A stretch of DNA of 35,359 nt, from positions 1-35,359 of the IMG/VR virus record IMGVR_UViG_3300042691_027378; one strand, written 5' to 3'. The notes under the pieces are model-generated. The model had not been told where the DNA came from and ran no database searches. It saw only the letters and a list, made by a program, of their open reading frames with translations. Source of the DNA: a virus. Of this stretch, positions 7,294 through 34,373 are shown piece after piece. Within the stretch, counting starts at the first letter, position 1, and every line of letters begins with the position of its first letter. Made by a program: the position numbers and the translations under genes.

Positions 7294-8233
7294 GTTCTGT
7301 TTCCTTAAGGTGATTTATTATATACTGTTTATTATCAATATCAACAAAATTTAAATGTTCTATCATCGCATTTTTATCATCAATTGATAAATTTTTTATA
7401 TCTAATCTTGGGGGATAGGTTAAAATGTTTGTAGTCCATGGATAAGAGTGTTCTTTGATCCAAGAACTTACATTAGACAAATCAAACCAATTATTAGTAT
7501 GTATTGTAGTGTGTATTGAAAATTTAAAGGAATTGACAGTAAGTTGATTTAAAAAATCTTCTATACTTTTCCAATTACTACCGGATCTCACGCGGTCATT
7601 GACTTCTTTATATCCATCAACACTTACAATAAATTCTACTAATTTAAATTGTTTTAACAAGTTTATTGTATCTGCACTTAAAAGAAAAGTTCCATTAGTA
7701 TTATAAGTTACTGAAACATTTTGTTTATTAACTATTTTTTGAAGGAACCTAATGTGCCTATTTGTCATTAGCGGCTCTCCTCCTAAAAATAAAACTTTGT
7801 TAACTGTTGGTGGAATTGTTTCTATCTCAGTGGTTGCTGTAATGTAAATTTTTTTTGGCTGTCCTGGATTATTCTTTTCAGCCCAAGAACTGCTAAACTC
7901 GTCAAAGCATCCGTCGCAGGTTAAATTACATATGTTGTCAAAACCTACTTCAAAGTATTCCAGTGCAACAGTATCACTTGTATACTCTGAATTAAAACGT
8001 TGACGTAGACTTTGCTTACCTAGGCTTTCTTCATAGTAGCATTTTTCGCAGCCTTTAATAGGAATCCCTTTAAAACTCATTTCTCTTAAATTTTGATACT
8101 CTGGTAAATTTAATACGTTGTTTAAATCTCCGTTAAATTTACCCACTGGTTCTTTGAAACGGCAACAGGGAAATATTCTATTATCTCCTCTTAAGTTTGT
8201 ATGTTTCCAAAAAGCAGCGCAGTATGAGTTCAT
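7286..8233 (-). CDS. Radical SAM protein with N-terminal Twitch-like Cys cluster
   Basis: 315 residues. An N-terminal cysteine-rich segment (C5 in MNSYCAAFW, C23-C24 in FPCC, C62 and C65 in GCEKCYYEE, then a QSLRQR tail) precedes the radical SAM core. The core 4Fe-4S motif is C102-x3-C106-x2-C109 (CNLTCDGC), with the SAM-binding GGEP at 151-154. Such proteins cleave S-adenosylmethionine to a 5'-deoxyadenosyl radical, and the extra Cys cluster probably holds an auxiliary cluster. Its start (MNSYC) and layout closely match the protein at 13819-14970. Each is followed by a small oxygenase, so the two gene pairs look like copies of one cassette. The substrate is unknown. Confidence 0.85.
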   Translation of the reverse strand: MNSYCAAFWKHTNLRGDNRIFPCCRFKEPVGKFNGDLNNVLNLPEYQNLREMSFKGIPIKGCEKCYYEESLGKQSLRQRFNSEYTSDTVALEYFEVGFDNICNLTCDGCFDEFSSSWAEKNNPGQPKKIYITATTEIETIPPTVNKVLFLGGEPLMTNRHIRFLQKIVNKQNVSVTYNTNGTFLLSADTINLLKQFKLVEFIVSVDGYKEVNDRVRSGSNWKSIEDFLNQLTVNSFKFSIHTTIHTNNWFDLSNVSSWIKEHSYPWTTNILTYPPRLDIKNLSIDDKNAMIEHLNFVDIDNKQYIINHLKETEHE

Positions 8234-9129
8234 AGCAGATCAGATTTAGTTTTTTCGGCAGGTGCTATATGAACAAGCATTTCTTGATGATTAGCAGGAC
8301 ACAGTTTACATTGTTCAATACTGTTAGGTAAATTTTTTAAAAATTCATCAATTACATTTTGATCAGCCCAGGGATCTAATCCTACTGTACGATCTAGTAT
8401 TTCTTTAGACGCTGGATCTATTGCAAACTGTTCTTTTAACTGTTGACCAACACCTGCTACTAAACATTTATAAAGTATACCTTCAACTAGATAGTGACAT
8501 TCTTTCCATGCACATGTTTCATGTGCTTGTTCTTGATCGCTATCGTGGAAATATATTATTTTATTTTCAATCCTGTTTATAGCACTTTCTGCAAAGATCC
8601 ATGAGAAATTCATAATAACTATATTTTGTCCTTGATAAGAAAAAAACAACTGATCCTGTGGCCAATTATTATTAATCATTTGACATTCGTTTTTGATATT
8701 GATTTCTTCAAAGTATTCTTTAAGGATGACATTCTCTACAACATCAATTATTTCGTTTTTCTCTCTAGAATCATGGACACTTATTTCTAATATTATTCCT
8801 GCCTTTAATAACTTTTTAATTGTGGAAGCTTTGGCTAACAGAGTATCTTTGCTTACTCCTGTAACAAGTCTAAAATCCTTGTGATCTTTCCAAATTTCTT
8901 TTAAGCCTAATGCCCAGTCTTCTACCTGGGGGTGCAATAAAGGTTCCCCGCCCATGATGCTAAATTCTTCAACATCTAATAACTCATGCCACTTGGTTGC
9001 GGCGTCTTTGTTATTTTCCCACTTAAGATGATTTTTAAACTTGTAGTTGTTAAACGTAGAACATTCTTTACAAGTTTTAGGACATACGTTTGTAATATAA
9101 TATGATAAAAATTTTATTGGGTGGCGCAT
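8230..9129 (-). CDS. Radical SAM protein with C-terminal Cys residues
   Basis: 299 residues. The core motif appears immediately, C16-x3-C20-x2-C23 (CPKTCKEC), followed by MGGEPLLHPQVE with GGEP at 60-63. The C-terminal third has further cysteines in AWKECHY, LYKCLV and EQCKLCPANHQ, consistent with an auxiliary SPASM/Twitch-type cluster. It lacks the N-terminal Cys-rich segment of the gene 3' of it at 7286. It overlaps that gene by 4 nt and the zinc-protein gene by 16 nt. I could not link it to a characterised radical SAM enzyme. It is not an obvious QueE, since the cysteine spacing and the C-terminal extension differ. Confidence 0.82.
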   Translation of the reverse strand: MRHPIKFLSYYITNVCPKTCKECSTFNNYKFKNHLKWENNKDAATKWHELLDVEEFSIMGGEPLLHPQVEDWALGLKEIWKDHKDFRLVTGVSKDTLLAKASTIKKLLKAGIILEISVHDSREKNEIIDVVENVILKEYFEEINIKNECQMINNNWPQDQLFFSYQGQNIVIMNFSWIFAESAINRIENKIIYFHDSDQEQAHETCAWKECHYLVEGILYKCLVAGVGQQLKEQFAIDPASKEILDRTVGLDPWADQNVIDEFLKNLPNSIEQCKLCPANHQEMLVHIAPAEKTKSDLL

Positions 9130-9711: not shown

Positions 9712-10599
9712 ATGTTTAAAATACTAGTTACAGGATCATCGGGATTTATCGGTCAACATCTATATCACTATCTTCAAAGTTGTGGATATACAGTTATTGC
9801 TGCCGATATTAAAGACGGTATAGATCTCACCCAAGAACAGGTTGTAAAGAATCTTCCAGACGTTGACGTAGTTATTCATTTGGCTGCTTATAACGGGACG
9901 AAACATTTTTACGATAAACCATTTGATGTTATAAGAAATAGCATATTACCTACACAGTATCTGTTAGAAAGGTACAGTGGCAAAGTTAAAAGATTTATTT
10001 TTGCAGGCACTTGCGAAAGTTACGCAGGGGCAGTTGATCTATTTGATTGGCCTGTGCCCACAGACGAAACTGTTCCTTTAGTGGTCAGCGATGTTAAGAA
10101 TCCTCGATGGAGCTACGGAGGCAGTAAGATTGTTAATGAGCTACAGGTAATTGCTGCACACGAACAGTTAGGTCAAGAATACACTATAATTAGATATCAT
10201 AATGTGTTTGGTCCAAATCAAGTTGACCACTTTATTCCAGAATTCATTGACCGTGCTAAAAACGGAGACTATGTGTTAAGAGGGTATTTGAATACTAGAA
10301 GCTTTATGTATATAGAAGATGCTCTCGAAGCTACTAGATTAATAATCGAAAGTGATAAGATAAAAAATCAAATTATTAATGTTGGCAACGATAAAGAAAT
10401 TAAAATTTTAGATGTTGCTAATATAATATTAGATCTCATGAATATTAAATCTCCCCTAGTGTTATATCCAGAACCATTAGGATCAGTAAAAAGAAGATGT
10501 CCTGATATTAAGAAACTACGATCTTTAGGTTTTAGAAGTAAAATTACACTACTACAAGGGTTAATGAAAGTAATGGAGTCGCAATGCAAATTGGAATAA
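9712..10599 (+). CDS. NAD-dependent epimerase/dehydratase (extended SDR)
   Basis: 295 residues, typical for the family. The NAD-binding glycine motif is TGSSGFIG at 7-14, the active-site Tyr-x3-Lys is Y135/K139 in WSYGGSK, and FAGTCESYAG (98-106) provides the upstream Ser/Thr-type position. Downstream YHNVFGPNQ and RSFMYIEDALEA are characteristic of nucleotide-sugar epimerases and dehydratases. It leads the plus-strand unit 9712-13328 directly behind a late-promoter-like element with no Shine-Dalgarno. It overlaps the dehydrogenase-like gene by 16 nt. The pairing of an epimerase and a UDP-sugar-dehydrogenase-like protein points to nucleotide-sugar interconversion. The exact sugar cannot be read from the sequence. 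A second epimerase is at 32860. Confidence 0.85.
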   Translation: MFKILVTGSSGFIGQHLYHYLQSCGYTVIAADIKDGIDLTQEQVVKNLPDVDVVIHLAAYNGTKHFYDKPFDVIRNSILPTQYLLERYSGKVKRFIFAGTCESYAGAVDLFDWPVPTDETVPLVVSDVKNPRWSYGGSKIVNELQVIAAHEQLGQEYTIIRYHNVFGPNQVDHFIPEFIDRAKNGDYVLRGYLNTRSFMYIEDALEATRLIIESDKIKNQIINVGNDKEIKILDVANIILDLMNIKSPLVLYPEPLGSVKRRCPDIKKLRSLGFRSKITLLQGLMKVMESQCKLE

Positions 10600-11375
10600 T
10601 TGGGTTAGGAGTAGTAGGCTCAGCTTGTAAAACAGGCTTTGAAATTTTAGGACACTCTGTAAAGTTTCATGATCCTAAATATAAAACAAACATATCAGAT
10701 TTAAAAGACACGGAAATATCCTATGTCTGTGTACCAACTCCTAACAGAGAAGATGGAAGCTGCGATATTTCAATAGTAGAAAAATCAATTAAAGAATTAG
10801 AAAATATTGACTATCAGGGCATAGTTGCTATGCGAAGCACTAATGAACCTGGAACTATTGATTACCTACAAAGTAAAACACATTTAAGATTGTGTGTAGT
10901 TCCGGAGTTTTTAAGAGAAAGGTATGCTACTGAAGACTTTATCAAAAATCATAACTTGTTAGTTGTAGGTTGTTATGATACAGAAGTTTTTAATCTAGTA
11001 GTTAAGAGTCATGGCGTGTTTCCTAAACATATTAAAATGATGACTCCAACCGAAGCAGAAATATTAAAGTATTATTCAAATGTATATAACGCCCTACGAA
11101 TTGTGTTTGCTAATCTTATGTACGAAGTTTGTGAATCTACTAGTGCCGACTACGGTAAAATAAAAGATGCCTTTATGTTGCGGGGAACAAGTTCAGGAGC
11201 ATATTTAGACTGTAATTCTAGTCTACGAGGATTTGGAGGTATGTGTTTACCCAAAGACACTAAAGCTCTTAATGCGTTTCTTAAGAAAAATAATATTGAT
11301 TTTAATCTATTAGATGCTGTGCTAAACGATAATGCCAAAGTTAAATCAACAGTATTTCCAGGAATGAGAGAATGA
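10584..11375 (+). CDS. UDP-glucose/GDP-mannose dehydrogenase-like protein, short form
   Basis: 263 residues against about 390-450 for complete family members. The Rossmann start is IGIIGLGVVGSA, followed by VCVPTPNREDGSCD (49-61), VPEFLRERYATEDF (106-119), the central-helix K162 and N166 in EILKYYSNVYNA, and the catalytic-cysteine loop GFGGMCLPKDTKA with C221 and D225. The protein ends soon after, so the C-terminal nucleotide-sugar-binding domain is absent, with no frameshift visible. A GGAG ribosome site precedes the ATG. The key catalytic residues remain, so oxidation of a sugar alcohol is possible, but substrate recognition must differ or depend on a partner. It overlaps the oxygenase gene by 4 nt. 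Confidence 0.8.
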   Translation: MQIGIIGLGVVGSACKTGFEILGHSVKFHDPKYKTNISDLKDTEISYVCVPTPNREDGSCDISIVEKSIKELENIDYQGIVAMRSTNEPGTIDYLQSKTHLRLCVVPEFLRERYATEDFIKNHNLLVVGCYDTEVFNLVVKSHGVFPKHIKMMTPTEAEILKYYSNVYNALRIVFANLMYEVCESTSADYGKIKDAFMLRGTSSGAYLDCNSSLRGFGGMCLPKDTKALNAFLKKNNIDFNLLDAVLNDNAKVKSTVFPGMRE

Positions 11376-13328: not shown

Positions 13329-13822
13329 TTTACGTATTCTGTTACTTGTAACACTATTCTAGGAATATGTCCTATGTTGGCTGCACCGTGTAAGTCAGTC
13401 GAGTCGATGTAAGTATAAACATCGCCTGCCTTGTAGTTTGTGATAACCTGATCCCTATACATAAAGATATGCCCGGGATGATAGTCCTGTAATGGTATCC
13501 AATATCTGTTACAGGATCTTTCGTGTGTATAAGGATCAGTATGCATAGGCATGTACTGTCCGGGCAGTAATTTTGTTATCCACCAATGTACATCTCCTGT
13601 ACACCACGGCGGTGATATAGATATGTTTAGATCTTTTTCTTCGTATACCCACCAATTTATTGCTGATAGGTCATACCCTGCCTCTTTATATTTTTTATAT
13701 TCAGCTGATTCAACAGCAGTAGCAGCTGGCCAATCTCTAGGTCTAGCTTGACCAACTCTAGTTAACACTAGATGTTCCCATAACGGGTCAACCCAACTAT
13801 AAAAATTACCTTTATAAATCAT
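13325..13822 (-). CDS. Small 2OG-Fe(II) oxygenase (H-x3-N-x5-R type)
   Basis: 165 residues. H94-T-D96 lies in MPMHTDPYTH, the distal H145 in DLHGAANIGHIPR, with N149 and R155 in the conserved positions, and the C-terminal strand LQVTEYVN matches the proteins at 1709 and 6694. The middle motif YKAGDVYTYID parallels KKGDVYTWQGD in the 6694 protein. It is coupled by 4 nt to the radical SAM gene at 13819, giving the same gene order as 7286 then 6694. All cofactor residues are intact, so it is expected to be an active dioxygenase. The substrate is unknown, but the radical SAM product is the obvious candidate. Confidence 0.8.
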   Translation of the reverse strand: MIYKGNFYSWVDPLWEHLVLTRVGQARPRDWPAATAVESAEYKKYKEAGYDLSAINWWVYEEKDLNISISPPWCTGDVHWWITKLLPGQYMPMHTDPYTHERSCNRYWIPLQDYHPGHIFMYRDQVITNYKAGDVYTYIDSTDLHGAANIGHIPRIVLQVTEYVN

Positions 13823-14970
13823 TTGTTTAAAGAATTAATATGTTTAATAAAAAAAGTTTTACTATCAACTTTTGGATTTATTTTTTTATAGTTGTCAATG
13901 TAGTCGTTTAACAGTTGGTTAGGACAAATTTCATTACGCATATTATCTAAAGATTCGTGAAAGTTTATAAAGTGTGAAAATTCTTCAGAACCTGTTTGTT
14001 TAAGAGCATCTCTCAGATGCTCGTAACGATCTCCCCAATCCTCCATTAAATCTAATAAAGTTTTTTTATAATCACTGGGTAAGTTTATTATAGATGCATG
14101 GGTTGGATATTCTAATAATTTGATCATCCAGTGTGCTTTTGGGAACTGTTCTAAAATTAATTTCTCAATATTTTTTAATTCATTTATATTATAAACAGAC
14201 GCAGTAGTAATAATTTGAAATGTCACATTATCTCTTAAATCACTAAACGAATAAAAATATTTTGCTGTTTCCAGAACTGTTGAAAAATTTGATCCGCTTC
14301 TAAAATAATCATTTAAATCGCCTACACCATCTATGCTTACAGCCACAGAAAGACTTTTAGAATTAAGCATAAATTTTAAAACATTGTCGTTTGGCTTAAC
14401 TGTACCATTTGTTATTAGTACAAAATTTATATTTTTTTCTAGCTGACGACTTGTTAGTAATGTTAAAAAATCTTCAACTTTTTTGCTATAAAGAGGTTCG
14501 CCTCCGGATATTTCAAGAAACTCTAAATTAGTAAATTGGTCTACATTTGACAACTCAAGTGAGCTATACTTTTTAGGACTGTATGTTGTTCCGTATAATT
14601 CTAATTCATCGTTGTACCACAGATGGCTAGCACCTGAATTACACCCTCGACATTTTAAATTACACAAATTATCGATGCATAAAAACAAATACTTTAACTT
14701 AACATCTGTAACATGGCCATATTCTCTCAATAAGATTTTTCTTTTAGATTCAATTCCATATTTTTCTAGCTGGTAGCACTGACTACAATTTTTTATCTCT
14801 TCCCCTGCTAACATTTTTTTTCTAATATCTTTAAACTCATCAGAATTAAGAACATCAGGAACATTTGAAAACTGCTGTGTAGATGCAATAGGATAATACC
14901 AGCAACAGGGCGAAATTCCGTCAGCAGTAATTTCAGCACTCATCCACGGAGCAGGGCAATAAGAATTCAT
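13819..14970 (-). CDS. Radical SAM protein with N-terminal Twitch-like Cys cluster
   Basis: 383 residues. The N-terminal Cys cluster has C5 in MNSYCPAPW, C22-C23 in SPCCWYY, and C62 and C65 in NCSQCYQLE. The radical SAM core has C103-x3-C107-x2-C110 (CNLKCRGC) and ISGGEPLYS with GGEP at 156-159. The opening residues and order match the protein at 7286-8233, and both are followed by a small oxygenase of the same subfamily. The start codon directly abuts the stop of the upstream oxygenase-like gene (14971). The family is typically called a twitch-domain radical SAM protein in marine phages. Its product is undefined. Confidence 0.86.
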   Translation of the reverse strand: MNSYCPAPWMSAEITADGISPCCWYYPIASTQQFSNVPDVLNSDEFKDIRKKMLAGEEIKNCSQCYQLEKYGIESKRKILLREYGHVTDVKLKYLFLCIDNLCNLKCRGCNSGASHLWYNDELELYGTTYSPKKYSSLELSNVDQFTNLEFLEISGGEPLYSKKVEDFLTLLTSRQLEKNINFVLITNGTVKPNDNVLKFMLNSKSLSVAVSIDGVGDLNDYFRSGSNFSTVLETAKYFYSFSDLRDNVTFQIITTASVYNINELKNIEKLILEQFPKAHWMIKLLEYPTHASIINLPSDYKKTLLDLMEDWGDRYEHLRDALKQTGSEEFSHFINFHESLDNMRNEICPNQLLNDYIDNYKKINPKVDSKTFFIKHINSLNK

Positions 14971-17058: not shown

Positions 17059-17619
17059 ATTAGGAAATGCTTTTTTAAGTTGATCATAAACAAAGGGAGT
17101 AAGTTTCCATCTAAACTCCATTTGCCTTACTTTTGGGTTGGTCATCCAAAAGTCAATAGCACTGATTATTTCTTCAAACTTTAAATTATAGTCGCTGACA
17201 AAGTGTGTGGGGTTATTATTGTCGGGCATACCCTCGATAAAACTTAAATCCAAATGTAGTAGATCTATACCGTTAGGATCTATGCTAATAAGTCTACACG
17301 CTTCTGCTAACTCTTGTTTATCGTGTACATAGTCTGTATGTATCAATTCAGGATAAAGCCTACTTACACTACCCATTACAATCATCTTTTTAACTTTGTT
17401 TTTTAATGCGTGGACTAGGCGAGTTTGTTGTTTGTCACGGTAAGCATTGTTAATAAACAAGTCAGCACCTGTTGCGGCTTCCACCACCTTATCAAAGTCT
17501 GCGTCTATGTCGTAGCCGTTACTACGGCTGAGTCCAACTACTTCCCATTCAGCAGATTTGAAGCTATTGTATAGTGCCTGACCTATACCTTGTGTATGTC
17601 CTGTGATTACAACTTTCAT
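17032..17619 (-). CDS. Short-chain dehydrogenase/reductase (SDR)
   Basis: 195 residues. The NAD(P)-binding motif is GHTQGIG at 7-13, followed by LSRSNGYD (30-37), the NN-Ala motif in LFINNAYRD (54-62), S84 in MGSVSR and the active Tyr-x3-Lys Y97/K101 in DYVHDK. Key catalytic residues are all present, but the protein is about 50 residues shorter than classical SDRs. It is strikingly similar to the 161-residue SDR at 18277, with an FkbM methyltransferase between them. It lies at the end of the minus-strand unit 19423 to 17032 and overlaps the FkbM gene by 4 nt. The substrate is unknown, probably a sugar or small carbonyl compound. Confidence 0.78.
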   Translation of the reverse strand: MKVVITGHTQGIGQALYNSFKSAEWEVVGLSRSNGYDIDADFDKVVEAATGADLFINNAYRDKQQTRLVHALKNKVKKMIVMGSVSRLYPELIHTDYVHDKQELAEACRLISIDPNGIDLLHLDLSFIEGMPDNNNPTHFVSDYNLKFEEIISAIDFWMTNPKVRQMEFRWKLTPFVYDQLKKAFPNLDPSRITF

Positions 17620-18287
17620 GATCTACAAAAAATTAAATTTTCTAAACTTGAATACAGTAATTTAAAACCTTGTTTAGTTGCATAGTCTATAAACTTTACT
17701 TTATCTTCTTCTTGGTCATAGGTGCTGTAAGCTACAATAAACATTTTACATTCAATGTCTTTTAAATTTATCTGTGTAAGGATTTCATAGTCGTAAGTAC
17801 CGTTGGTATCAATACACAATAAATCACATTTACTACGGCCGATAACAGTATGGAAGTCTTTCCAGGATAACATTTGAATTTCATATGTTTGATATTCTAT
17901 TCCTAGATCTATAAATTTTTCAGCATGTTGTTTATCAAAGTAGCTGGTTAATCCTGTGTTAGATTTAAGATCCCCAGTGTAATTTGGAGCATCGTCTTTT
18001 TCTAAAAAAGGCAATTCTCCACACTCAAAAAACATAGTATTTTTTGATTCCTTGCCTATACCTAGATTAAAACAATATATGTTTTTCTTACCTTCGTGTA
18101 ATTCGCACAATAAATTGTAAGCACGTCTTCCTGGCTCAACTAAAAATCCTGCCCAGCCTCTTTCCAATAGAGCAAGACTGTTGCTAAAAGTTTTTCCATC
18201 GTTAGCACCAATATCACAAACTGTGCCAATCATATCTCCAAAGTAATTAAGAATAATTTCTTGTTCTGCGTTCTGACTATAGTTCAT
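17616..18287 (-). CDS. FkbM family methyltransferase
   Basis: 223 residues. The SAM-binding motif is VCDIGANDGKTFSNSLAL (D25-G31), followed by the acidic E51 in FLVEPGRR. The FkbM-typical CDLLCIDTNGTYDYEIL (154-170) holds D160 near the end of the Rossmann core. FkbM proteins O-methylate hydroxyls, often on sugars, in surface-polysaccharide and lipid clusters. It overlaps the SDR gene on each side (4 and 11 nt), so the three are translated as a set. It shares a transcription unit with the oxygenase at 18755. A sugar or surface-polymer substrate is inferred from family habit and neighbourhood. Confidence 0.82.
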   Translation of the reverse strand: MNYSQNAEQEIILNYFGDMIGTVCDIGANDGKTFSNSLALLERGWAGFLVEPGRRAYNLLCELHEGKKNIYCFNLGIGKESKNTMFFECGELPFLEKDDAPNYTGDLKSNTGLTSYFDKQHAEKFIDLGIEYQTYEIQMLSWKDFHTVIGRSKCDLLCIDTNGTYDYEILTQINLKDIECKMFIVAYSTYDQEEDKVKFIDYATKQGFKLLYSSLENLIFCRS

Positions 18288-19458: not shown

Positions 19459-19463
19459 TCTTT

Positions 19464-20204
19464 ATGACTAGCGTAAACATTCCCTTTGATCCAAAATGGA
19501 CTAGCATCGGTATCGGATTAAGTGGTGGTGCAGATTCTGCTTTGCTCACATATCTTATATGTGATTCAGTAGTTAAACATCAAGTACAAAATTTTAAGAT
19601 ACACGTTATTAATCATATACGATGTTGGAAAACTAAACCTTGGCAACGCTACGATGCCCTGGAAGTATATGGCTGGCTACAAAATAGATTTCCTGATATT
19701 ACTTTTGAACTACACACTAACTTTATTGCACCAGAATTAGAATGGGGTAATAAAGGCCCAACCCTAGTTGACGAGTATGGTAAAACAGTCAGTGGCGATA
19801 ATATAGAAGCAAGAGCATTTGCTGAATACGTTTGTGTGACAAATAAAGTTAATGCATTCTTTAACGGTGTAACTAGAAATCCTAGAGATGTAGAATTTAA
19901 AGGTATGCAACCTCGAGACATAGAACCTTCTGAAAATAATAAACATTTAGAAGTTATGGAACACATGGGTTTCCTAGCCTGCCACCCTTTTAGATTCATA
20001 GAAAAAAATTGGGTTATTAAGCAATATAGAGAATTAGACATTTTAGATCTTTTTGATATTACAAGAAGCTGTGAAGGTGATAATTCTACTAGACCAGAAG
20101 TGTTTATGGGATTAGATTACACTACCTACAAACCAAATCAATCTGTTCCTATCTGCGGTCGATGCTTTTGGTGCAGAGAGAGGAGATGGGCGCTTGAGCA
20201 ATAG
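19464..20204 (+). CDS. PP-loop ATPase of the QueC-like (adenine nucleotide alpha hydrolase) type
   Basis: 246 residues from the ATG at 19464, chosen because it sits 5 nt after a late-promoter-like octamer. An upstream extension to 19335 would run through the divergent gene. The pyrophosphate-binding loop is SGGADS at 20-25. Four cysteines at the C-terminus, C203 in RSCEG and C231, C234 and C237 in CGRCFWC, match the zinc site of QueC, the 7-cyano-7-deazaguanine synthase that uses ATP and ammonia. The C-to-C gap is longer than in QueC, and no FolE, QueD or QueE gene is in the window, so a preQ0 role is not established. ATP-dependent amidation or nitrile formation on another acid is an alternative. 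It overlaps the SGNH gene by 11 nt. Confidence 0.75.
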   Translation: MTSVNIPFDPKWTSIGIGLSGGADSALLTYLICDSVVKHQVQNFKIHVINHIRCWKTKPWQRYDALEVYGWLQNRFPDITFELHTNFIAPELEWGNKGPTLVDEYGKTVSGDNIEARAFAEYVCVTNKVNAFFNGVTRNPRDVEFKGMQPRDIEPSENNKHLEVMEHMGFLACHPFRFIEKNWVIKQYRELDILDLFDITRSCEGDNSTRPEVFMGLDYTTYKPNQSVPICGRCFWCRERRWALEQ

Positions 20205-20832
20205 GCTTGTTACATTTGGTTGTTCATTTACCTACGGAGAGGGACTGCCTAATTGTAACGTAGGAAACAATCATCACGGATATAGTTTAACTCCTAGCGA
20301 TCATGCATGGCCAAGTATTTTAAGTAGATTAACAAATATGGATTTAGCAAACAATGCTAAACCGGGATCAAGTAATTTAGAAATATTATATCACATACTT
20401 AATTTTAATTTTAGACCCGGTGATGTTGTTGTAGTAATGTGGACCTTTCCTAATAGAGATTTACATTTCATTTCTACATCTAAAAAAATTAAACCTTTTA
20501 GACAGTTAGGATTATGGCTTAAGCCTAGATCTAAATATATTGCAGAATGGCTGTGTAATTTTCAACCTGTTGATCAAGCAGTTAAAAGTTGGCTGTATAT
20601 GCATCACGCAGAACTATATCTTAAAAGTCTAGGAGTCGAATATATACACTATCCGATTAATCCAACCGAGCTTAATCTATATAAGCCAAATTTTATACCT
20701 GAGCTTGATAACTATTATGCAGACGGTTTTGTAACCGTAGATCAATGTGAAGCTGATCCGCACCCGGGCACTGAGTCTCATAAACACACAGCTGATAAGA
20801 TTTTTCAAATTTTAAAAAATGAATTCAAGTAA
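20194..20832 (+). CDS. SGNH/GDSL-like hydrolase
   Basis: 212 residues. The start is a TTG at 20194: no ATG occurs early in frame, and an AGGAG ribosome site (20181-20185) stands 8 nt upstream. Block I is GCSFTYGEG with nucleophile S11, block II includes NAKPGSSN (54-61), and the C-terminal HPG segment gives D188/H190 in EADPHPGTESH. This is a DxH arrangement, while its paralog at 34363 has the usual DxxH. It overlaps the PP-loop gene by 11 nt and the radical SAM gene by 14 nt. SGNH proteins are esterases or acyltransferases on sugars, lipids and peptidoglycan, and the substrate here is unknown. All three SGNH proteins in this window abut a radical SAM gene. Confidence 0.75.
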   Translation: MSNRLVTFGCSFTYGEGLPNCNVGNNHHGYSLTPSDHAWPSILSRLTNMDLANNAKPGSSNLEILYHILNFNFRPGDVVVVMWTFPNRDLHFISTSKKIKPFRQLGLWLKPRSKYIAEWLCNFQPVDQAVKSWLYMHHAELYLKSLGVEYIHYPINPTELNLYKPNFIPELDNYYADGFVTVDQCEADPHPGTESHKHTADKIFQILKNEFK

Positions 20833-22084
20833 AACATTTTGTATGCATCCTTTTACAGGACTGGCAACTAGAGAAGACGGAGCAATAAAAGTCTGCTGCC
20901 GTAGTGCTCCTGTAGGTTACATACAAAATCAAACTTTAGAAGAAATATGGAATAACAATACCATGCAGGAAGTTCGCAGACAAGTTCTTTGCGGTGAACG
21001 ACCTGAAGTATGTAAACCTTGTTTTGATTTAGAAGACCAGGGTGTTGAAAGTCTACGTCAACGACACATTAATGGTGTTATTCCAGAAGCACGTATTAAT
21101 CTGTATCCAGATGCAGTATCTAAAATGCGTGATGATTACACAATGCCTTTTGAATTTCCCACAATGGAAATTAAGTTAAACAATCTGTGTAACTTAAAGT
21201 GTCGTATGTGTAATCCTTTAGACAGCACCAGTTGGAGTGACTGGAGTAAGATTGAAGAATTTTACATTAAAGAAAACAACTATCTAGTGCCTGTGGTAAA
21301 CGACCTGGGACTTAAAACCAGCAGATATATCTGTCCATTTGATGATACAGATAATTGGTGGGCAAGTTTTGAAAAACTATTACCGCACTTTAGACGAGTA
21401 GAATTTGCTGGCGGGGAACCTTTAATGGATCCACAGCATTATAAGATATTAGACATGCTTAAACCCTATGCTAAAAATATAGAAATTAAGTATGCTACAA
21501 ACGCAACAACATTGGGGATTAAAGGTGGAAGAACTATACATGACTATTGGCCATATTTTAAATCAGTTGCCGTTAACGTCAGCATTGATGGCATTCATGA
21601 TGTTTACAATTACATTCGTAGTAACGGCAATTTTAGTGAAATTGAGCAGAACATCAAAGAAATACAAACACTACCAAACATATCAAGAATAGTAGGTGCG
21701 TTTACTGCCCAGGCAGGTAATATACTACAGGCTGCGGAGTGTATTGACTATTTTATTAACACAATGGGCATTGTGTTTTATAGTCATCGTGTAAGTTACC
21801 CTAACTGTCTGTCAGCGCAGGTGCTACCACAAGAATTAAAAGCACTAGCAATTACTAAATTATTGGCAGTTAAATCTCAAGTAGATACCTGGGATGCTGT
21901 AAAGAATAATCCTTTGATTGGTAAAGTTACACATCAGCAGATACAGGATAACGTCAATTACTTACAGGCAAAGGATCAGTACCACCTGTGGGCGGACTTT
22001 GTTGAATTTAATCGAAGACTTGATGCTACTCGTCATCAAGGTCCTTTAGAAAAGATAGTTCCTGAATTTAAACCTTATGTATAA
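20819..22084 (+). CDS. Radical SAM protein with N-terminal Twitch-like Cys cluster
   Basis: 421 residues. The Cys-rich N-terminal segment has C8 in FCMHPF, C26-C27 in VCCRSA, C58 in LCGE, and C65 and C68 in VCKPCFDLED. The core cluster motif is C124-x3-C128-x2-C131 (CNLKCRMC), and AGGEPLMD places GGEP near 198-201. A long middle segment (about 140-190) before GGEP is larger than in the 7286 and 13819 proteins and matches the 26478 protein. The gene overlaps the SGNH gene by 14 nt and the next gene by 8 nt. Radical chemistry on a peptide or sugar is expected. No precursor peptide is visible beside it. Confidence 0.86.
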   Translation: MNSSKTFCMHPFTGLATREDGAIKVCCRSAPVGYIQNQTLEEIWNNNTMQEVRRQVLCGERPEVCKPCFDLEDQGVESLRQRHINGVIPEARINLYPDAVSKMRDDYTMPFEFPTMEIKLNNLCNLKCRMCNPLDSTSWSDWSKIEEFYIKENNYLVPVVNDLGLKTSRYICPFDDTDNWWASFEKLLPHFRRVEFAGGEPLMDPQHYKILDMLKPYAKNIEIKYATNATTLGIKGGRTIHDYWPYFKSVAVNVSIDGIHDVYNYIRSNGNFSEIEQNIKEIQTLPNISRIVGAFTAQAGNILQAAECIDYFINTMGIVFYSHRVSYPNCLSAQVLPQELKALAITKLLAVKSQVDTWDAVKNNPLIGKVTHQQIQDNVNYLQAKDQYHLWADFVEFNRRLDATRHQGPLEKIVPEFKPYV

Positions 22085-22940
22085 AAAGTTTATACTAGAA
22101 TTAAGTTCGAGCAGTGAATCTTATAATGTTACGTTTGATATTTTAGAAACACCTATTGCTCAAAAATGGGCTACGGAAGTATCTAAAAATTATCCGCTAT
22201 ACGAAACAGATAGATTTCAAGGCTGGAATCCTAATCTTACATTAGAACATTTTGAAACAGCATTGTTAGCACAGATTGATATTGTAAACAAATATAAACC
22301 TAATACGGTAAACATAGAACAAAATCTTTTTGATCAACAGCACCTTAACTACCTGCATAGATTTTTTGAAGAGCTACGAGGGGAAGCATCAGTTGGCACA
22401 GAGTTTTTTAATTCTGCTCCTGGCAATGTTCAACAGGCAATAGAAAAATTCAATGTACTGATACACGAGTGTGAGCATCACATGCGGGATCAAGCTATAC
22501 CTACAATAATAGGTACATTTAAAGATAGGCCAAGAATAGATCTAGCAGACGCAGACTATGATGAGTTTACATTCCAGTGGCAGTTTGGCTGTGTGTATAT
22601 TAACTACTGCGAAGTCGGTAAACCTTTGCTAGATGTCTACAAGGATCAAGACACTAACATTCCAATTGATGCAGTAAGGCCGCTAAAATACTACAGCGCA
22701 GACTTTATGCTCAAATTTGGACCTAATGTGCCCGAACAGCAGTACCAAGCACGACTTAAAGATTTTTGGAATTGGTACAGCAACACTGACTATAACTTTG
22801 ACAAAAATCGTTTGGCTTTGGGCTACATCCCAGTTGCCCAATTATCCTACAAGGACAACCAATTTTTGGAAATGTCCAATCTAGAGATTATCAATCAAAT
22901 TACTCAATACAATAAACTAAAATCAGTTTTGGTAAAATAG
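22077..22940 (+). CDS. Phage protein of unknown function with an HECEH motif
   Basis: 287 residues, recognised only as a conserved marine-phage-type protein, with no named domain. Residues 125-138 read FNVLIHECEHHMRD, containing H130-E-C-E-H134, the HExxH pattern of zinc metallopeptidases. I do not see the third ligand clearly, and the motif could be chance in a conserved helix. The C-terminal half is rich in aromatic residues (FTFQWQFGCVYINYCEVGKP). The gene overlaps the radical SAM gene by 8 nt and ends in TAG at 22938-22940, inside an 11-bp direct repeat. Function unknown. Confidence 0.5.
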   Translation: MYKKFILELSSSSESYNVTFDILETPIAQKWATEVSKNYPLYETDRFQGWNPNLTLEHFETALLAQIDIVNKYKPNTVNIEQNLFDQQHLNYLHRFFEELRGEASVGTEFFNSAPGNVQQAIEKFNVLIHECEHHMRDQAIPTIIGTFKDRPRIDLADADYDEFTFQWQFGCVYINYCEVGKPLLDVYKDQDTNIPIDAVRPLKYYSADFMLKFGPNVPEQQYQARLKDFWNWYSNTDYNFDKNRLALGYIPVAQLSYKDNQFLEMSNLEIINQITQYNKLKSVLVK

Positions 22941-23014: not shown

Positions 23015-23143
23015 ATGAAAGGCTTGGTAATTGCATTTATTTTAGGAATGGTTGTGGCAACTGTTGGCTTGTCCGGCATTGCTCGCATCTTTGACAAAGG
23101 CATTGAAACCGTTAAAACACACAGTCAGGAGTTGGCAAAATGA
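23015..23143 (+). CDS. Small single-span membrane protein
   Basis: 42 residues from the ATG at 23015, preceded by an AGAGG ribosome site five bases upstream. One hydrophobic segment spans about residues 3-20 (LVIAFILGMVVATVG), followed by a short polar tail. It begins the unit expressed from the sigma70 promoter at 22955 and overlaps the lipoprotein gene (ATGA, 23140-23143). I recall similar tiny membrane proteins in marine T4-like phages. No function is known, and an envelope role with the two lipoprotein-like proteins that follow is likely. Confidence 0.6.
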   Translation: MKGLVIAFILGMVVATVGLSGIARIFDKGIETVKTHSQELAK

Positions 23144-23760: not shown

Positions 23761-23762
23761 TC

Positions 23763-24736: not shown

Positions 24737-25633
24737 ATGTATAAAGTAACCAGCAGATGGGGACACCAAAATTCTGTCAAGGTTGAATGGAATCTAGGAA
24801 AGCGGTGCAATTACGATTGTTCATATTGTCCTAGTTCCATTCACGATAACACCAGCCCCCATACACCGATAGAAACTTTAAAAAGTGTAGTTGATAAACT
24901 GCTCACACTTAACAAACCGGTGCGTTTAAGCTTCACCGGCGGAGAGCCCTGCGTCCATCCGCAGTTTGAAGAATTAATAAGATATGCTAGGCACAAGGGC
25001 GTTCCCTGGATAAGCGTAACTACCAACGGAACTCGACCTTACGAATTTTATTCTATGCTACCTGTTAGCCAATACGTATTCAGCATACATTTTGAATACG
25101 ATTGGAACCGTGTTGTTAACACGCTACGCAAATTAAGAGATTCAACTAATTTAAACCTTATAGGACAAATCATGGCACATCATGATCATATGCCTATGGT
25201 CAAGCTAGTACGCCAAGTATTGCTCAACGACGACATTGCCAGTACTGTAAGAAGAATAAGATGGACTGAAGGCGACCATGATTTATTTGATGACTTGCGA
25301 TATCACCCCAATGACCTTAATTGGATCAAAGAACAAGAATCAACAGTACAGGGTAACTGTGTCATAGACGACCAACAAATTCTGCACTCGAATGATGTTA
25401 TTAAATTACACCTTAATCAGTACAAAGACTGGACCTGTAATGCAGGTATTGAGAGTTTGATGATTAACTGGGACGGAGAAGTACACCGTGCCACTTGTCG
25501 AGTTGGTGGCAGTCTAGGAAATATATACGATGGTTCGTTTGACATACCTACAGAGCCAATTACCTGTACTAGAAATTGGTGCACCTGTGCTGCCGATATA
25601 CCTTTGACAAAAACTAATAATGAACCTAGCTAA
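24737..25633 (+). CDS. Radical SAM protein with SPASM-like C-terminal Cys cluster
   Basis: 298 residues from the ATG at 24737; a TTG three bases earlier is less likely. The core motif is C24-x3-C28-x2-C31 (CNYDCSYC), with TGGEP at 67-71. The C-terminal part (WTCNAG, INWDGEVHRATCRVGGSLGN, and later CTRNWCTC) has the layout of a SPASM domain, which holds auxiliary 4Fe-4S clusters and is common in peptide-modifying enzymes. The C-terminal part at 34998-35359 is clearly related (WMCNSG, SYSCHD, LGTL). It overlaps the SGNH gene by 14 nt. Whether it acts on a peptide or another substrate is unknown. Confidence 0.84.
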   Translation: MYKVTSRWGHQNSVKVEWNLGKRCNYDCSYCPSSIHDNTSPHTPIETLKSVVDKLLTLNKPVRLSFTGGEPCVHPQFEELIRYARHKGVPWISVTTNGTRPYEFYSMLPVSQYVFSIHFEYDWNRVVNTLRKLRDSTNLNLIGQIMAHHDHMPMVKLVRQVLLNDDIASTVRRIRWTEGDHDLFDDLRYHPNDLNWIKEQESTVQGNCVIDDQQILHSNDVIKLHLNQYKDWTCNAGIESLMINWDGEVHRATCRVGGSLGNIYDGSFDIPTEPITCTRNWCTCAADIPLTKTNNEPS

Positions 25634-26483
25634 TTTAGACGTTTCTAAATACAAAAGGTTTTTTGCCTTTGGTTGTAGTTTTACAAACTACATTTGGCCA
25701 ACATGGGCTGACATTATTGCACAGGATATTGAAGTTTATCAGAATTGGGGACAAATAGGTTCAGGCAATCATTATATCTTTAATTCTGTATTAGAGTGCG
25801 ATGCTAGAAATAACTTTACCAAAGACGATCTAGTTATAATCATGTGGTCGTCTATTGAAAGAGAAGATCGCTATTCTAACGGCAAGTGGTTAACTGCAAT
25901 TACAGAAAAAGATAAAAAAAGTTTATATGGCCGACAATGGTTTAAAAGTTACGGGGAAGACTATCGTAGTTGTTTAATACGAGACATGGCATTTATAAAG
26001 TCAACACAGACATTCCTCTCTGCTAAAAACTGCGATTGGGCAAATTTTAGTATGTACTCTATATGTAACATGGATGAGGAGAAACTGTTACAAGATGGGT
26101 ATGCTGACGACAAAGATGTAGATTTGCTTATACAGAGATATTTAAAGCTAAACAGAGATCTCTGTGACGGCAAAGAAATTACTGAACCCTATGTCTGTGA
26201 TCCTGATGTGCTTGCTCTTTATAAAGATGCATATTCACAGATAAAATATTCGGTGCTAGATATAGTACGACAAGGACATTTTTTAAAAGACAATCTAGCT
26301 AATTTTGGTGATGGGCATCCTACGCCAATTGAACATTTAAACTATTTAGATACTGTGTTGCCTAATAACTTGAGTCTAAAGGCAAAGCAGTTTGCAGTAG
26401 AATGGGAATCAGTAGTTCAGTCTATTAAAGAACGTGATGTTATGCCGCAGAAGTTTGAAAGACCTATAATTAAAAGATTATAA
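25620..26483 (+). CDS. SGNH-like hydrolase, larger form
   Basis: 287 residues, longer than the 212-residue forms. Block I is AFGCSFTNY with S20 as the expected nucleophile; NWGQIGSGN (42-50) stands at the block II/III position; and GDGHPTPIEHLNYL near 235-248 supplies the His and Asp positions (DGHP). A middle insert of about 80 residues separates these blocks. It overlaps the radical SAM gene by 14 nt and converges with the radical SAM gene at 26478 with a 6-nt overlap. An esterase or acyltransferase activity on a surface polymer fits the family. The substrate cannot be read. Confidence 0.68.
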   Translation: MNLANLDVSKYKRFFAFGCSFTNYIWPTWADIIAQDIEVYQNWGQIGSGNHYIFNSVLECDARNNFTKDDLVIIMWSSIEREDRYSNGKWLTAITEKDKKSLYGRQWFKSYGEDYRSCLIRDMAFIKSTQTFLSAKNCDWANFSMYSICNMDEEKLLQDGYADDKDVDLLIQRYLKLNRDLCDGKEITEPYVCDPDVLALYKDAYSQIKYSVLDIVRQGHFLKDNLANFGDGHPTPIEHLNYLDTVLPNNLSLKAKQFAVEWESVVQSIKERDVMPQKFERPIIKRL

Positions 26484-27860
26484 CAAATGCGATAGTTCTG
26501 GAAATACTTTTTTAAATTCACTGCCTCTTACAGCATCTATATTAAAGATGTATTCCTTAAAAGCAGTTAACTGATCTGAATGATCTTCACTGTCCATAAA
26601 ATCTAAAACTGCCTGCCAGCGTTTCCAACCGTAGGGATTAAGTTTCCAGTAGTCTTCATCTTGCCTATAGTTTTTATACAGCCAAGTTGCTAGTTCTGCA
26701 AATTTCTGTCTTACCTCTGCTTTATCTTCTTCTGGTAAACATTTTATACTTAAAAATGTAGGAATATACAATAGGTGCATGTTTACAATTCCGCCACCTG
26801 CTTGTATTCCACCGACAGTATTTTCTAAATTAACTTTCTTAAAGTTTTGTGTAATCTTCCATTTGGCAAAATCTGCCAAGTGTTTAATGTTTAGTATTTG
26901 TATTGCAGTAGCAATACTAACTTGTATGTTATCCGGAGTGTTATCTAACTTGCGTAAATTCTTTTCTATAGTGGCCCAGTCGCTAGGATAGCGAATGTAA
27001 TAGTTACGGTCGCCTATAGCATCAACGCTAAAGCCAACTTTAACTTTTTTAAATTGTTTCCATAAATCAATGATTTCGTCATCTATTAATAATCCGTTTG
27101 TATTGTAGCGTACAAGTATCTTGTCTGCGTATCCTTGACGTATAATTTCTTCAAGGAATAATCTATGCTCTCGGATCATTAAAGGCTCACCGCCTGCAAA
27201 GTATACCTGCTTTAGGTTAGGGATCTGTGCATACATCTCTTTCCAGAAGTCTGGATTCTCATGCCAAAAGTTATTAAATTCTTTTCGGTCCCATTGCATC
27301 TGTTCTTTAAGTACAGTTGATTTAAACAACGGATATATTTTTTTATGATCAGCTACCCACTGACTGCTATCGTGTGGGCTACACATAACACACTTAAGAT
27401 TACAAGTGTGTCCTAATCTTAAATCTAGATAAACAAGTTTATCTGGAACTGTGCCATCTTCTTCTGTTTGTGCAATAAGTTCTGCAACATCGATACCTTC
27501 TTCAATCCAAGAACCAGTCTCCCAAATACGTTTACTAGCCACACCTTGGGATTCTTCTCCTATGCACTTACTACAACTAGAAGGGATTTTTCCCTCTAGC
27601 ATAGTTAAACGTACATCCTTCATATATTCATTATTCCACGCACTCATTGGAGTTTCACGACCAAAGTTTGCTGGCTGACCTTTTTCATTCTTAACAAGGC
27701 CTATTGTGTGATTTTCACCTGCACCACTGGCGTTAGCACCACAGCACAATCTCATATCACCATTGGGGCGTGTGGCAAAATGTATCCACGGCAATATGCA
27801 GAAAGTTTTACTTCCTGATACTGTTTCAATTTTATCTTGCCAAAGTTTAATTTTATTCAT
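26478..27860 (-). CDS. Radical SAM protein with N-terminal Twitch-like Cys cluster, long form
   Basis: 460 residues from the ATG at 27860, chosen because it overlaps the upstream gene by 8 nt in the usual style. A GTG at 27875 is also possible. N-terminal cysteines are C21 (TFCILPWIHFAT), C39-C40 (RLCC), and C96 and C99 (CSKC). The core motif is C153-x3-C157-x2-C160 (CNLKCVMC), and AGGEPLMIREH places GGEP at 223-226. The middle insert and the N-terminal order resemble the 20819 protein. It is the last gene of the minus-strand unit that comes in from the right edge. It shares no precursor peptide within sight. Confidence 0.86.
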   Translation of the reverse strand: MNKIKLWQDKIETVSGSKTFCILPWIHFATRPNGDMRLCCGANASGAGENHTIGLVKNEKGQPANFGRETPMSAWNNEYMKDVRLTMLEGKIPSSCSKCIGEESQGVASKRIWETGSWIEEGIDVAELIAQTEEDGTVPDKLVYLDLRLGHTCNLKCVMCSPHDSSQWVADHKKIYPLFKSTVLKEQMQWDRKEFNNFWHENPDFWKEMYAQIPNLKQVYFAGGEPLMIREHRLFLEEIIRQGYADKILVRYNTNGLLIDDEIIDLWKQFKKVKVGFSVDAIGDRNYYIRYPSDWATIEKNLRKLDNTPDNIQVSIATAIQILNIKHLADFAKWKITQNFKKVNLENTVGGIQAGGGIVNMHLLYIPTFLSIKCLPEEDKAEVRQKFAELATWLYKNYRQDEDYWKLNPYGWKRWQAVLDFMDSEDHSDQLTAFKEYIFNIDAVRGSEFKKVFPELSHLL

Positions 27861-28893
27861 TGCAGTTTTTAGCACAAGCCCAGGGTTTGTTTGGGCCTGT
27901 AGTTATTTCATTAAGATCAGACCAAACACTGTCTGTAATTGCATTGTTATTTAAATTAAAAATATCTAAACTTTTAAATTTATTTTTAGTATCTTCAACC
28001 ATTTTATTTCTTAAACTATGTATGGTAATTTTTTCTTCGAGAGGTTGTTCCAACCAATCACTGCCTACCCAACAACAGGGCAATACATTACCTCTACTGT
28101 CAATGTATAATTCTTTATTGTTTATACATCTAGGTTTTACTTTGGCATTAGAAACGTGTGATTCCCATGATTTGAGATTGGCTGCTACTTCTTCTAATTT
28201 AATTACAGCTACTTTTTTAAAACGTTCTGTGATAGCAGGCTTAAGACTGTATTCATAGTTGCCATTTTTATCCTCAACATTAAACTTCTCCATGTCGTAG
28301 AACCTAGCTGTAGACTTGAAGTTAACTTTACCAAAACCTAAAGCTAACATTTCTTTTTCAAATTGATCTGCTTCAAGTTCGTTGTGTTCAAAAATTAAAC
28401 AGTCAATGGTAGCATATCCTCCGGCATTTATAAATGCCTTTGCATTGTCTATAATTTTGTGCCAGTCTGTTCCACGTCGATATAACACATGGCTGTCTGC
28501 AAATCCATCTATGCCAAATGTTACTTCGTGATTATCTTTCAGCGCCTTTGCTAGGTTAGCCCACCATGTGGTAGATCTAGCACTGCCATTTGTATGTATG
28601 CCCAGTCTTACTTGGGGATTTGCATTACGCACGTATTCAAAAATTTCTAAACAATCTTGTGCTATAATAGGATCGCCGTAATTGCCACAGGCATAGAAGT
28701 TAGTAAGTTTAGACAGAAAGTCTAAAGAGAACCAACTTTTAAATTGATCTAGAGTAATTTCATTTTTTCCAACAAAGGGACGTTCTTTCCCTCCGTTATA
28801 GTTCCTAGCACACATAGGACAACTAGCTTGACATTTGTCTGTAAGCTCAACGTGTACTTGTTCGATATTATCTAAATGATTTAAGCTGGGCAT
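27853..28893 (-). CDS. Radical SAM/SPASM-like protein with a GNYGDP variant
   Basis: 346 residues. The core motif is C21-x3-C25-x2-C28 (CQASCPMC), but the GGEP-type loop reads CGNYGDPIIAQD (G70-P75). That variant keeps the G..GDP shape seen in a minority of radical SAM proteins. C256 (PRCINNKELYIDSRGN) and C273-C274 (LPCCW), plus two Cys in the terminal ACAKNCNE, form a SPASM-like C-terminal cluster region. It overlaps the small helical protein gene by 13 nt and the 26478 gene by 8 nt. The SPASM layout is typical of peptide-modifying enzymes, so the small protein beside it is worth testing as a substrate. Confidence 0.82.
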   Translation of the reverse strand: MPSLNHLDNIEQVHVELTDKCQASCPMCARNYNGGKERPFVGKNEITLDQFKSWFSLDFLSKLTNFYACGNYGDPIIAQDCLEIFEYVRNANPQVRLGIHTNGSARSTTWWANLAKALKDNHEVTFGIDGFADSHVLYRRGTDWHKIIDNAKAFINAGGYATIDCLIFEHNELEADQFEKEMLALGFGKVNFKSTARFYDMEKFNVEDKNGNYEYSLKPAITERFKKVAVIKLEEVAANLKSWESHVSNAKVKPRCINNKELYIDSRGNVLPCCWVGSDWLEQPLEEKITIHSLRNKMVEDTKNKFKSLDIFNLNNNAITDSVWSDLNEITTGPNKPWACAKNCNE

Positions 28894-32859: not shown

Positions 32860-33777
32860 TTAGCACTTGAGTTTTTCTCTCCAAATATCTATAGTAAGAT
32901 CTAATCCTTGATCTAGAGATACTTTAGGATACCAACCTGTAACTTCTGTTATCAAGTTATGATTACTATTTAACCAGTATATTTCTCCAGGTCTAAATAG
33001 TTTAGTGTGCCAATTAATTTTGCCGTTCCAGTTTAATTTCTTTGCAATCATATCAGCATAGTCTTTGATCTTAATTGGATCATCTGGGCCAAGCGTGAAT
33101 ATTTTACCGTTAACCTTATCTGGATTATTGATCACAGTCATCCAAGCATCTAATAGGTCTTCAATATAGATAAAATTTCTGTAAGGTTCAGCATAGCCAA
33201 ATCCGACTTCTTGTTGATTAGTCAGCATTTGACTAATAATCTGTTCAGTGACAAAGAACTCGTTGTCTTTGCGACCATAACTGTTAGTTTGTCGAATAGC
33301 AGTAAATGGAAGTCCCAGGCAACGATGTGCATATTCTAAATATTTTTCAACACCATACTTGGCCACAGCATAAGGCGCATTAGGATTAGGTATAGTATTT
33401 TCATCAAAGGCCACGTGCGATGAAGGTTTGCCATGTTTTTCTATTTCATCACTAATAGGTTGCCAACCATAGACTTCCATTGTACTGGCAAATACAAAAT
33501 TTTTAAGATTTCTCACAGCACTTGCGGCTTCAATTAAGTTAACGCTGCCTACATAGTTAATTTCACTGAATGTTATTTGCTCATAGAAGCTCTGTTCTAC
33601 TTCTGTTCTAGCAGCCAAATGCACAATTACATCTGGTTTGAAGCTTAATACTTCTAGTTTAACAGCTTCGTAGTCACGAAGATCGCTTTGTAAATGATGT
33701 AGTTCGTGGTCAGCTTTGAGACGTTCAGTGAGATGAGACCCAATAAATCCACTAGATCCTGTCATTAAAATTTTCAT
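32860..33777 (-). CDS. NAD-dependent epimerase/dehydratase (extended SDR)
   Basis: 305 residues. TGSSGFIGSHL (6-16) is the NAD-binding loop; VHLAARTEVEQS (52-63) and FASTMEVYG (96-104) are typical; and the active Tyr-x3-Lys is Y136/K140 in PYAVAKYG. The C-terminal RNFIYIEDLLDAW is characteristic of UDP-sugar epimerases and dehydratases. It is close to the family length, with no missing motif. It lies 1 nt from the kinase-fold gene and overlaps the methyltransferase-like gene by 4 nt. With the 9712 epimerase it gives the window two nucleotide-sugar enzymes. The actual sugar is unknown. Confidence 0.86.
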   Translation of the reverse strand: MKILMTGSSGFIGSHLTERLKADHELHHLQSDLRDYEAVKLEVLSFKPDVIVHLAARTEVEQSFYEQITFSEINYVGSVNLIEAASAVRNLKNFVFASTMEVYGWQPISDEIEKHGKPSSHVAFDENTIPNPNAPYAVAKYGVEKYLEYAHRCLGLPFTAIRQTNSYGRKDNEFFVTEQIISQMLTNQQEVGFGYAEPYRNFIYIEDLLDAWMTVINNPDKVNGKIFTLGPDDPIKIKDYADMIAKKLNWNGKINWHTKLFRPGEIYWLNSNHNLITEVTGWYPKVSLDQGLDLTIDIWREKLKC

Positions 33778-34373
33778 ATTTTGTATCCTATGAGCATAAA
33801 CCTTTTGTATAGAGGCAGATCTAGTTCGTCTGCCCAGACAACTTTTATTTTACTTTGATCTTTAAAATCTTCTAGACTGTCTGCTGTTCTTACATGTTCA
33901 GGTATACTATAATTATTGCTTTGTAAAACTAAAAGACTGTGTCTTGGTGCTTGATCTATCCAAGCGACATATTGTTCTTGAGTTATGTGTTCACAACTGG
34001 TGTTGATAATAACGTCGGCATCGCTTACACAACTGCACATATCCGAAGTTACTGCATCAAATCTTCCCTCAATTTCCTCTTTTCTATTCATAAGTTTGGC
34101 TATTGATTCGCAAGAAGGATCTATATCAATACTGCGAATATGTTTTATCATAGGACCTAACTGTGACTGGAACATAAGACTGGCCAACACTCCCACCCAA
34201 CCCCCGTGAATGTCTATACTCACGGGCTTATCTATGTGTTGAATTAGATTATTAATCAGCCACTCTTTGCTTTTTAGCTGCCCCTGCCAGAAAGCATCCA
34301 TGGTCCGCATAGGATCTGGACTTTGTCGAATAGCCTGCATCCAAAAATGCAAGTGGTCTAAATCAATCTTCAT
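33774..34373 (-). CDS. SAM methyltransferase-like protein with atypical motif I
   Basis: 199 residues. A Rossmann pattern is visible: VSIDIHGGWVGVLASLMF (51-68) at the place of motif I, where GxGxG is replaced by HGGWVG; IRSIDIDPSCESIAK (79-93) with the acidic motif II residue; and FDAVTSD followed by DVIINTSCEHITQ (120-132). This layout recurs in marine-phage proteins annotated as methyltransferases. SAM binding is not certain because the glycine loop is unusual. It overlaps the epimerase gene by 4 nt and the SGNH gene by 11 nt. Methylation of a sugar or peptide product is a modest inference. Confidence 0.55.
   Translation of the reverse strand: MKIDLDHLHFWMQAIRQSPDPMRTMDAFWQGQLKSKEWLINNLIQHIDKPVSIDIHGGWVGVLASLMFQSQLGPMIKHIRSIDIDPSCESIAKLMNRKEEIEGRFDAVTSDMCSCVSDADVIINTSCEHITQEQYVAWIDQAPRHSLLVLQSNNYSIPEHVRTADSLEDFKDQSKIKVVWADELDLPLYKRFMLIGYKI

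Follow-up and report, generated by a model that had tools for sequence, protein, structure and literature searches.

Organization of the locus

The window analyzed here is the whole 35,359-nt stretch of DNA, which constitutes the entire IMG/VR record and carries 45 genes, 8 of them encoding radical SAM (rSAM) proteins (Table 1). Three genes for SGNH-fold proteins lie among them, and each overlaps an rSAM gene. SGNH1 overlaps R1 by 14 nt, rSAM2 overlaps SGNH2 by 14 nt, and R3 overlaps SGNH3 by 1 nt in the sequence TAATG. These overlaps had been reported by a sequence-only reading of the window, whose coordinates were exact. Its statement that every SGNH gene overlaps an rSAM gene also holds at the sensitivity of the search, because a profile search gave no fourth SGNH in the window.

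Table 1. Features of the 35,359-nt window
Feature	Position	Strand	Properties
Amidinotransferase, StrB1-like	3357..4412	-	351 aa; inosamine-phosphate amidinotransferase 1bwd, E 1.5e-85
rSAM, N-terminal twitch	7286..8233	-	315 aa; NF033640 223 bits
rSAM	8230..9129	-	299 aa; PF04055
NAD-dependent sugar epimerase/dehydratase	9712..10599	+	PF01370
Nucleotide-sugar dehydrogenase (UDP-sugar type), short	10584..11375	+	263 aa; PF00984/PF03721; TIGR03026 below cut-off
rSAM, N-terminal twitch	13819..14970	-	383 aa; NF033640 235 bits
FkbM-type methyltransferase	17616..18287	-	PF05050
PP-loop ATPase, QueC-like CxxC..C end	19461..20204	+	weak ATP_bind_3/QueC; PHROG QueC-like 1e-4
SGNH1	20194..20832	+	SGNH-fold hydrolase-like, 212 aa; slot "before R1"; motifs GCSFT, Gly block II, DPHPG
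R1	20819..22084	+	rSAM, N-terminal twitch/SPASM, 421 aa; CNLKCRMC; NF033640 313 bits, PF04055, PF13186
Gene between R1 and rSAM2 in some islands	22077..22940	+	287 aa, no known family
rSAM2	24737..25633	+	298 aa; C-terminal Cys-rich part; CNYDCSYC; PF04055 50 bits
SGNH2	25620..26483	+	SGNH fold, 287 aa; slot "after rSAM2"; Ser20, Gly47, Asp231-x-His233
Convergent rSAM, N-terminal twitch	26478..27875	-	465 aa; NF033640 408 bits
rSAM	27853..28893	-	346 aa; PF04055
NAD-dependent sugar epimerase/dehydratase	32860..33777	-	PF01370 134 bits
Recurrent island protein (HLHFWMQAIRQS...)	33774..34373	-	199 aa; homologues L003, L004, L008, L029, L109
SGNH3	34363..34998	-	211 aa; weak match to Pfam Lipase_GDSL, 1.7e-6
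R3	34998..35359	-	rSAM C-terminal end; gene truncated by window end

The rSAM genes form a dense set and are accompanied by genes for sugar enzymes, for amidino and methyl transfer and for 2OG-oxygenase-type enzymes; searches of the window with Pfam and PHROGs gave no clear glycosyltransferase. Homologues of the gene that follows R1 (260-311 aa) occupy the same place in other islands. Its identification as a conserved metalloprotease was ruled out, as the HExxH motif is not kept in the homologues.

Several other genes of the window merit description in their own right. An aminotransferase-like gene (4402-5322) directly adjoins the StrB1-like amidinotransferase gene; it gave a weak Pfam match only, and a sequence search returned no structural relative. 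Within the island, at 23140-24728 on the plus strand, lie two genes whose products may be secreted or resemble lipoproteins; one has an LPP20 match below threshold, and a local G+C peak of 0.43 was also observed there. A single open reading frame at 29677-30405 on the minus strand combines a cold-shock domain (PF00313) with a glutathione peroxidase domain (PF00255), both scoring above their cut-offs.

The radical SAM proteins

The CX3CX2C motif and a PF04055 match were present in the seven complete rSAM proteins of the window, and for R3 they were established through its complete copy in a contig that is 99.99% identical (L024:5027-6001, 324 aa, PF04055 3.9e-12). The cut-off of the model NF033640, "twitch domain-containing radical SAM" (170), was exceeded by four proteins, those beginning at 7286, 13819, 20819 (R1) and 26478, which bears out the earlier description of the gene following SGNH1 as Twitch-type. 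The auxiliary twitch/SPASM domain of R1 is N-terminal, and R1 gave no match to solved structures. We know of no reaction assigned to the NF033640 family.

For rSAM2, NF033640 was not among the best 25 model matches. An AF2 model of this protein, of pLDDT only 75, was compared with Foldseek and lay nearest to BlsE; SpeY, BtrN and DesII were also listed, as were peptide maturases, among them SuiB, SkfB, EpeE and a sactipeptide thioether enzyme.

The SGNH-fold proteins

SGNH1 and SGNH3 were 40% identical, and SGNH3 carried a weak Pfam GDSL match. Pfam returned no match for SGNH1 or SGNH2, and SGNH2 has only motifs in common with the other two. The AlphaFold (AF2) model of SGNH2 (pLDDT 90.4) nevertheless displayed the three-layer SGNH fold, and its best VIA-align rows were GDSL/SGNH enzymes with Z up to 10.2 (ChoE). 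The block I catalytic Ser (GxS) was present in 90 of 93 family rows, including all three window proteins, the block II Gly (G47) was invariant in the SGNH alignment (A2), and block V, Asp-x(1,2)-His, was found in nearly all of the 93 rows, for SGNH2 mostly as DxH and not DxxH. Block III (GxND) was seen in 3 of the 93 rows and in none of the 14 rows from genes located after rSAM2, with MW[ST] in its place. Because the fold is present and the block III Asn is missing, these proteins are termed SGNH-fold, and the name of canonical SGNH hydrolase is not claimed for them.

The known enzymes ChoE, TesA, Axe2 acetylxylan esterase and PatB resemble the proteins described here in fold, block I Ser, block II Gly and block V Asp/His. 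The latter differ from them in the replacement of GxND, in the prevailing DxH spacing and in an identity of 7-16%. As judged from these residues, the intact Ser and Asp/His would be compatible with the acylation or deacylation of a radical-modified product that the sequence-only reading had suggested, and the SGNH-fold proteins are perhaps O-acyl esterases or transferases.

The island in related viruses

IMG/VR was scanned with alignments of rSAM2 (A3; more than 566 relatives) and of the SGNH proteins (A2; more than 512 relatives), and the best 80 of each were used. Among these best relatives, dozens of viral contigs, which reach 364 kb in length, shared the same island gene order. It begins with a PP-loop gene or a gene of about 281 aa, an optional SGNH gene (about 208 aa) and R1 (about 420 aa), continues with an optional SGNH gene or a gene of about 268 aa, rSAM2 (about 300 aa) and an optional SGNH gene (about 285 aa) or another rSAM gene, and ends with convergent rSAM genes of about 340, 470 and 360 aa, after which come a gene of 200 aa and additional rSAM genes. 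The PP-loop gene often lies upstream of R1 or SGNH1; in 36 of the R1-bearing loci it immediately precedes R1.

In another virus group, the SGNH gene immediately precedes QueE, and a B12-binding rSAM gene often comes before the SGNH gene. Contigs L124-L178 (e.g. L134:3992-7550) carry a B12-binding rSAM, an SGNH and QueE next to one another in this order, a QueD homologue lies close by in the cluster, and the same QueE clusters include a further SGNH-like family (DUF6071; L134:9146-9871 and relatives).

A search of 50,697 records of isolated phages gave no match to SGNH1 or SGNH2, and a search of 84,980 cellular genomes returned one relative only, a 5.5-kb contig of a Flavobacteriales MAG (L209) that perhaps derives from a phage. 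Its genes are arranged as rSAM-SGNH-SGNH-rSAM-rSAM, with the SGNH genes in tandem among three rSAM genes.

Adjacency of SGNH and radical SAM genes

The presence of an rSAM neighbor at three of three SGNH genes had been considered unlikely to arise by chance. Random insertion of three genes into a window with 8 rSAM among 45 genes gave p=0.028 for this outcome. The overlaps themselves are uninformative, since most same-strand neighbors overlap anyway (29/38 in the window and 79% of 1,857 pairs in the relatives), and on this account overlap was rejected as evidence of coupling.

The gene-neighborhood survey that the sequence-only reading had proposed was drawn from the closest relatives only, many of them fragmentary contigs, with greedy ORF calling; clusters were formed at 60% identity and counted as independent though related by descent. 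In the final adjacency test the rSAM labels were HMM-based and included B12-type rSAM proteins and QueE. Across whole rSAM2-seeded contigs, 8 of 14 SGNH genes adjoined an rSAM gene compared to 1.7 expected (p=6.5e-5). Within rSAM2-seeded islands, 26 of 29 clusters were rSAM-adjacent against an expectation of 18.6 (p=0.001), and in SGNH-seeded neighborhoods the excess was small (19/45 against 15.4, p=0.13). These whole-contig and within-island results together place SGNH genes in rSAM islands far above chance, with direct adjacency inside the islands only mildly enriched. The outcome of the survey was therefore mixed.

It is possible, although we consider it rather doubtful, that there is no partnership, that a single hypervariable region carries both gene types in abundance, and that its rSAM density (20-45% of island genes) by itself generates adjacency. 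This model would predict the SGNH-seeded result, and it is also consistent with overlap being the rule for all genes and with the many SGNH paralogues of the same viruses that have no rSAM neighbor. The rSAM2-seeded and whole-contig excesses argue against it, as does the loyalty of SGNH genes to their slots.

Optional presence and slot loyalty

Of the 75 rSAM2 homologues placed on a tree, 42 had no SGNH gene in any slot; in an obligate pair an SGNH gene would occur wherever its rSAM partner does, and this is not the case here. The presence of an SGNH gene directly after rSAM2 (14 rows) required 13 changes on this tree compared to 13.2 when shuffled; this scatter corresponds to content swaps between related genomes of the kind seen in CP220-type cassettes. 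The tree of 93 SGNH proteins gave the opposite picture for the slots, with 4 changes for "after rSAM2" (13.3 shuffled), 4 for "before R1" (13.2 shuffled) and 2 for "before QueE" (20.7 shuffled). Evolutionary distances of SGNH1 tracked those of R1 (rho 0.46, p=0.0055) and not those of rSAM2 (rho -0.11); those of SGNH2 tracked rSAM2 (rho 0.31, p=0.005) and R1 (0.30) and not the convergent rSAM (0.04). Both the tree changes and the distance correlations fit SGNH genes that are optional, slot-loyal cargo, a pattern that would equally be expected from the co-transfer of linked genes.

The "conserved partnership" of the sequence-only reading was therefore upheld in part. The association recurs in many uncultured viruses, exceeds the whole-contig expectation and is accompanied by slot loyalty and by the SGNH1-R1 correlation. 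In a strict sense it was not supported, in that over half of the islands lack the SGNH gene, its presence is scattered on the rSAM2 tree, and the excess within islands is slight.

A dedicated pair or complex, in which each SGNH protein would work directly with the overlapping rSAM protein through translational coupling and a shared intermediate, is accordingly unlikely. Pairing of all three SGNH genes in the window, slot loyalty with distances that follow the direct neighbor, and the gene order of the Flavobacteriales contig would all agree with such a unit, yet the rSAM2 homologues that have no SGNH gene, the generic nature of the overlaps and the rSAM cassettes of isolated phages, in which no SGNH gene was detected, speak against it.

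The predicted product

A sugar-type product is favored because of the StrB1-like amidinotransferase, the sugar epimerases and the UDP-sugar dehydrogenase, and a decorated sugar would be a likelier product than a peptide. Two further groups with SGNH genes also carry amidinotransferase homologues. The sugar context, the sugar cluster of the isolated cyanophage S-SCSM2R, the retained Ser and Asp/His residues and the proximity of rSAM2 to BlsE are in favor of such a product with the SGNH protein as a putative acyl esterase or transferase. Counting against this reading are the absence of a clear glycosyltransferase from the Pfam and PHROG results for the window, the peptide maturases among the structural matches of the rSAM2 model with its pLDDT of 75, and the slight adjacency excess within islands.

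A role of the island in making an altered nucleobase or in modifying DNA, along 7-deazaguanine lines, appears improbable. The QueC-like PP-loop gene adjoining SGNH1 would suit this chemistry, as would the other virus group, with its SGNH gene directly upstream of QueE and a QueD homologue in the same cluster; among the window proteins scanned, however, there was no QueE or QueD match, and a glycan would better suit the sugar and amidinotransferase genes. A RiPP-like cluster whose SPASM/twitch maturases modify a peptide is very unlikely, since the SPASM/twitch architecture and the fold matches of rSAM2 to peptide maturases are countered by the scores of R1, which reaches peptide-maturase models only far below their cut-offs, and by gene maps (ORFs of at least 60 aa) in which no conserved short precursor ORF stood out.

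The reading that we prefer, and to which we give about an even chance, is a mosaic phage island for a decorated sugar or glycan, with the SGNH-fold proteins as optional, slot-bound tailoring members; it includes, at the same even level of confidence, the assignment of the window to a large uncultured tailed phage, in whose mosaic biosynthetic island the window would lie. SGNH genes are gained and lost between islands and yet stay in their own slots, namely before R1, between R1 and rSAM2, after rSAM2 and, in the other virus group, before QueE. The rSAM protein would oxidize, epimerize or rearrange an intermediate, and the SGNH protein would add an acyl group to the same intermediate or remove one. 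The decorated sugar or glycan may be destined for a surface polymer or a similar target, and gene swapping would vary the product. A more specific form, which we advance tentatively, is a combinatorial biosynthesis island for an unusual sugar- or aminocyclitol-like decoration; phages would exchange matched rSAM-SGNH units as cassettes of tailoring enzymes, and the products of related phages would in this way differ chemically.

The occurrence of optional SGNH genes in fixed places beside particular rSAM genes suggests that these phages produce an unusual decorated molecule in varying forms. The slot-bound genes provide concrete testable units, SGNH2 with rSAM2 and SGNH1 with R1, and these units bear on what phage islands make and on whether enzyme swaps vary the decoration of a surface or virion.

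Comparison with known phage radical SAM systems

Cassettes of rSAM genes in phages have been on record since 2010, to our knowledge without a known function, and a literature search found no paper describing a link between rSAM and SGNH genes. Rich sets of 8-12 rSAM genes per phage are described for phages that include 332-Vera (PMC12390700), in which eight lie in a structural cluster, and TARA_ERS488813 (PMC5332604), and pelagimyophages carry additional rSAM cassettes in a glycosyltransferase-rich, hypervariable host-recognition region (PMC7029224). The consulted passages of these reports make no mention of SGNH partners, and the likeness to the window concerns the number of rSAM genes and their sugar-type neighbors.

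Among isolated phages, no SGNH gene was detected in the rSAM cassettes of CP220, CPt10, K566, D484 or S-SCSM2R. The Vibrio phages K566 (L211) and D484 (L214) are related, and the rSAM cassettes that occupy one shared region of their genomes appear to differ, that of D484 having QueC-like and NAMPT-like genes and that of K566 three rSAM genes and other genes. The cyanophage S-SCSM2R of Synechococcus combines in one cluster an rSAM, an inosamine amidinotransferase, 2OG oxygenases, several glycosyltransferases and a gene annotated as 3-amino-5-hydroxybenzoic acid synthase; it differs from the window in its single rSAM gene as well as in the SGNH genes.

The Campylobacter phages CP220 and CPt10 have interchangeable clusters with five rSAM genes and a putative glycine amidinotransferase (PMC2853527). 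Apart from the SGNH genes, the difference from the window lies in their rSAM proteins, which are just 23-29% identical to rSAM2. Several adjacent rSAM genes and an amidinotransferase gene, the latter not directly beside rSAM2, are likewise found in the window, and its relatives, like the Campylobacter phages, have exchangeable slots.
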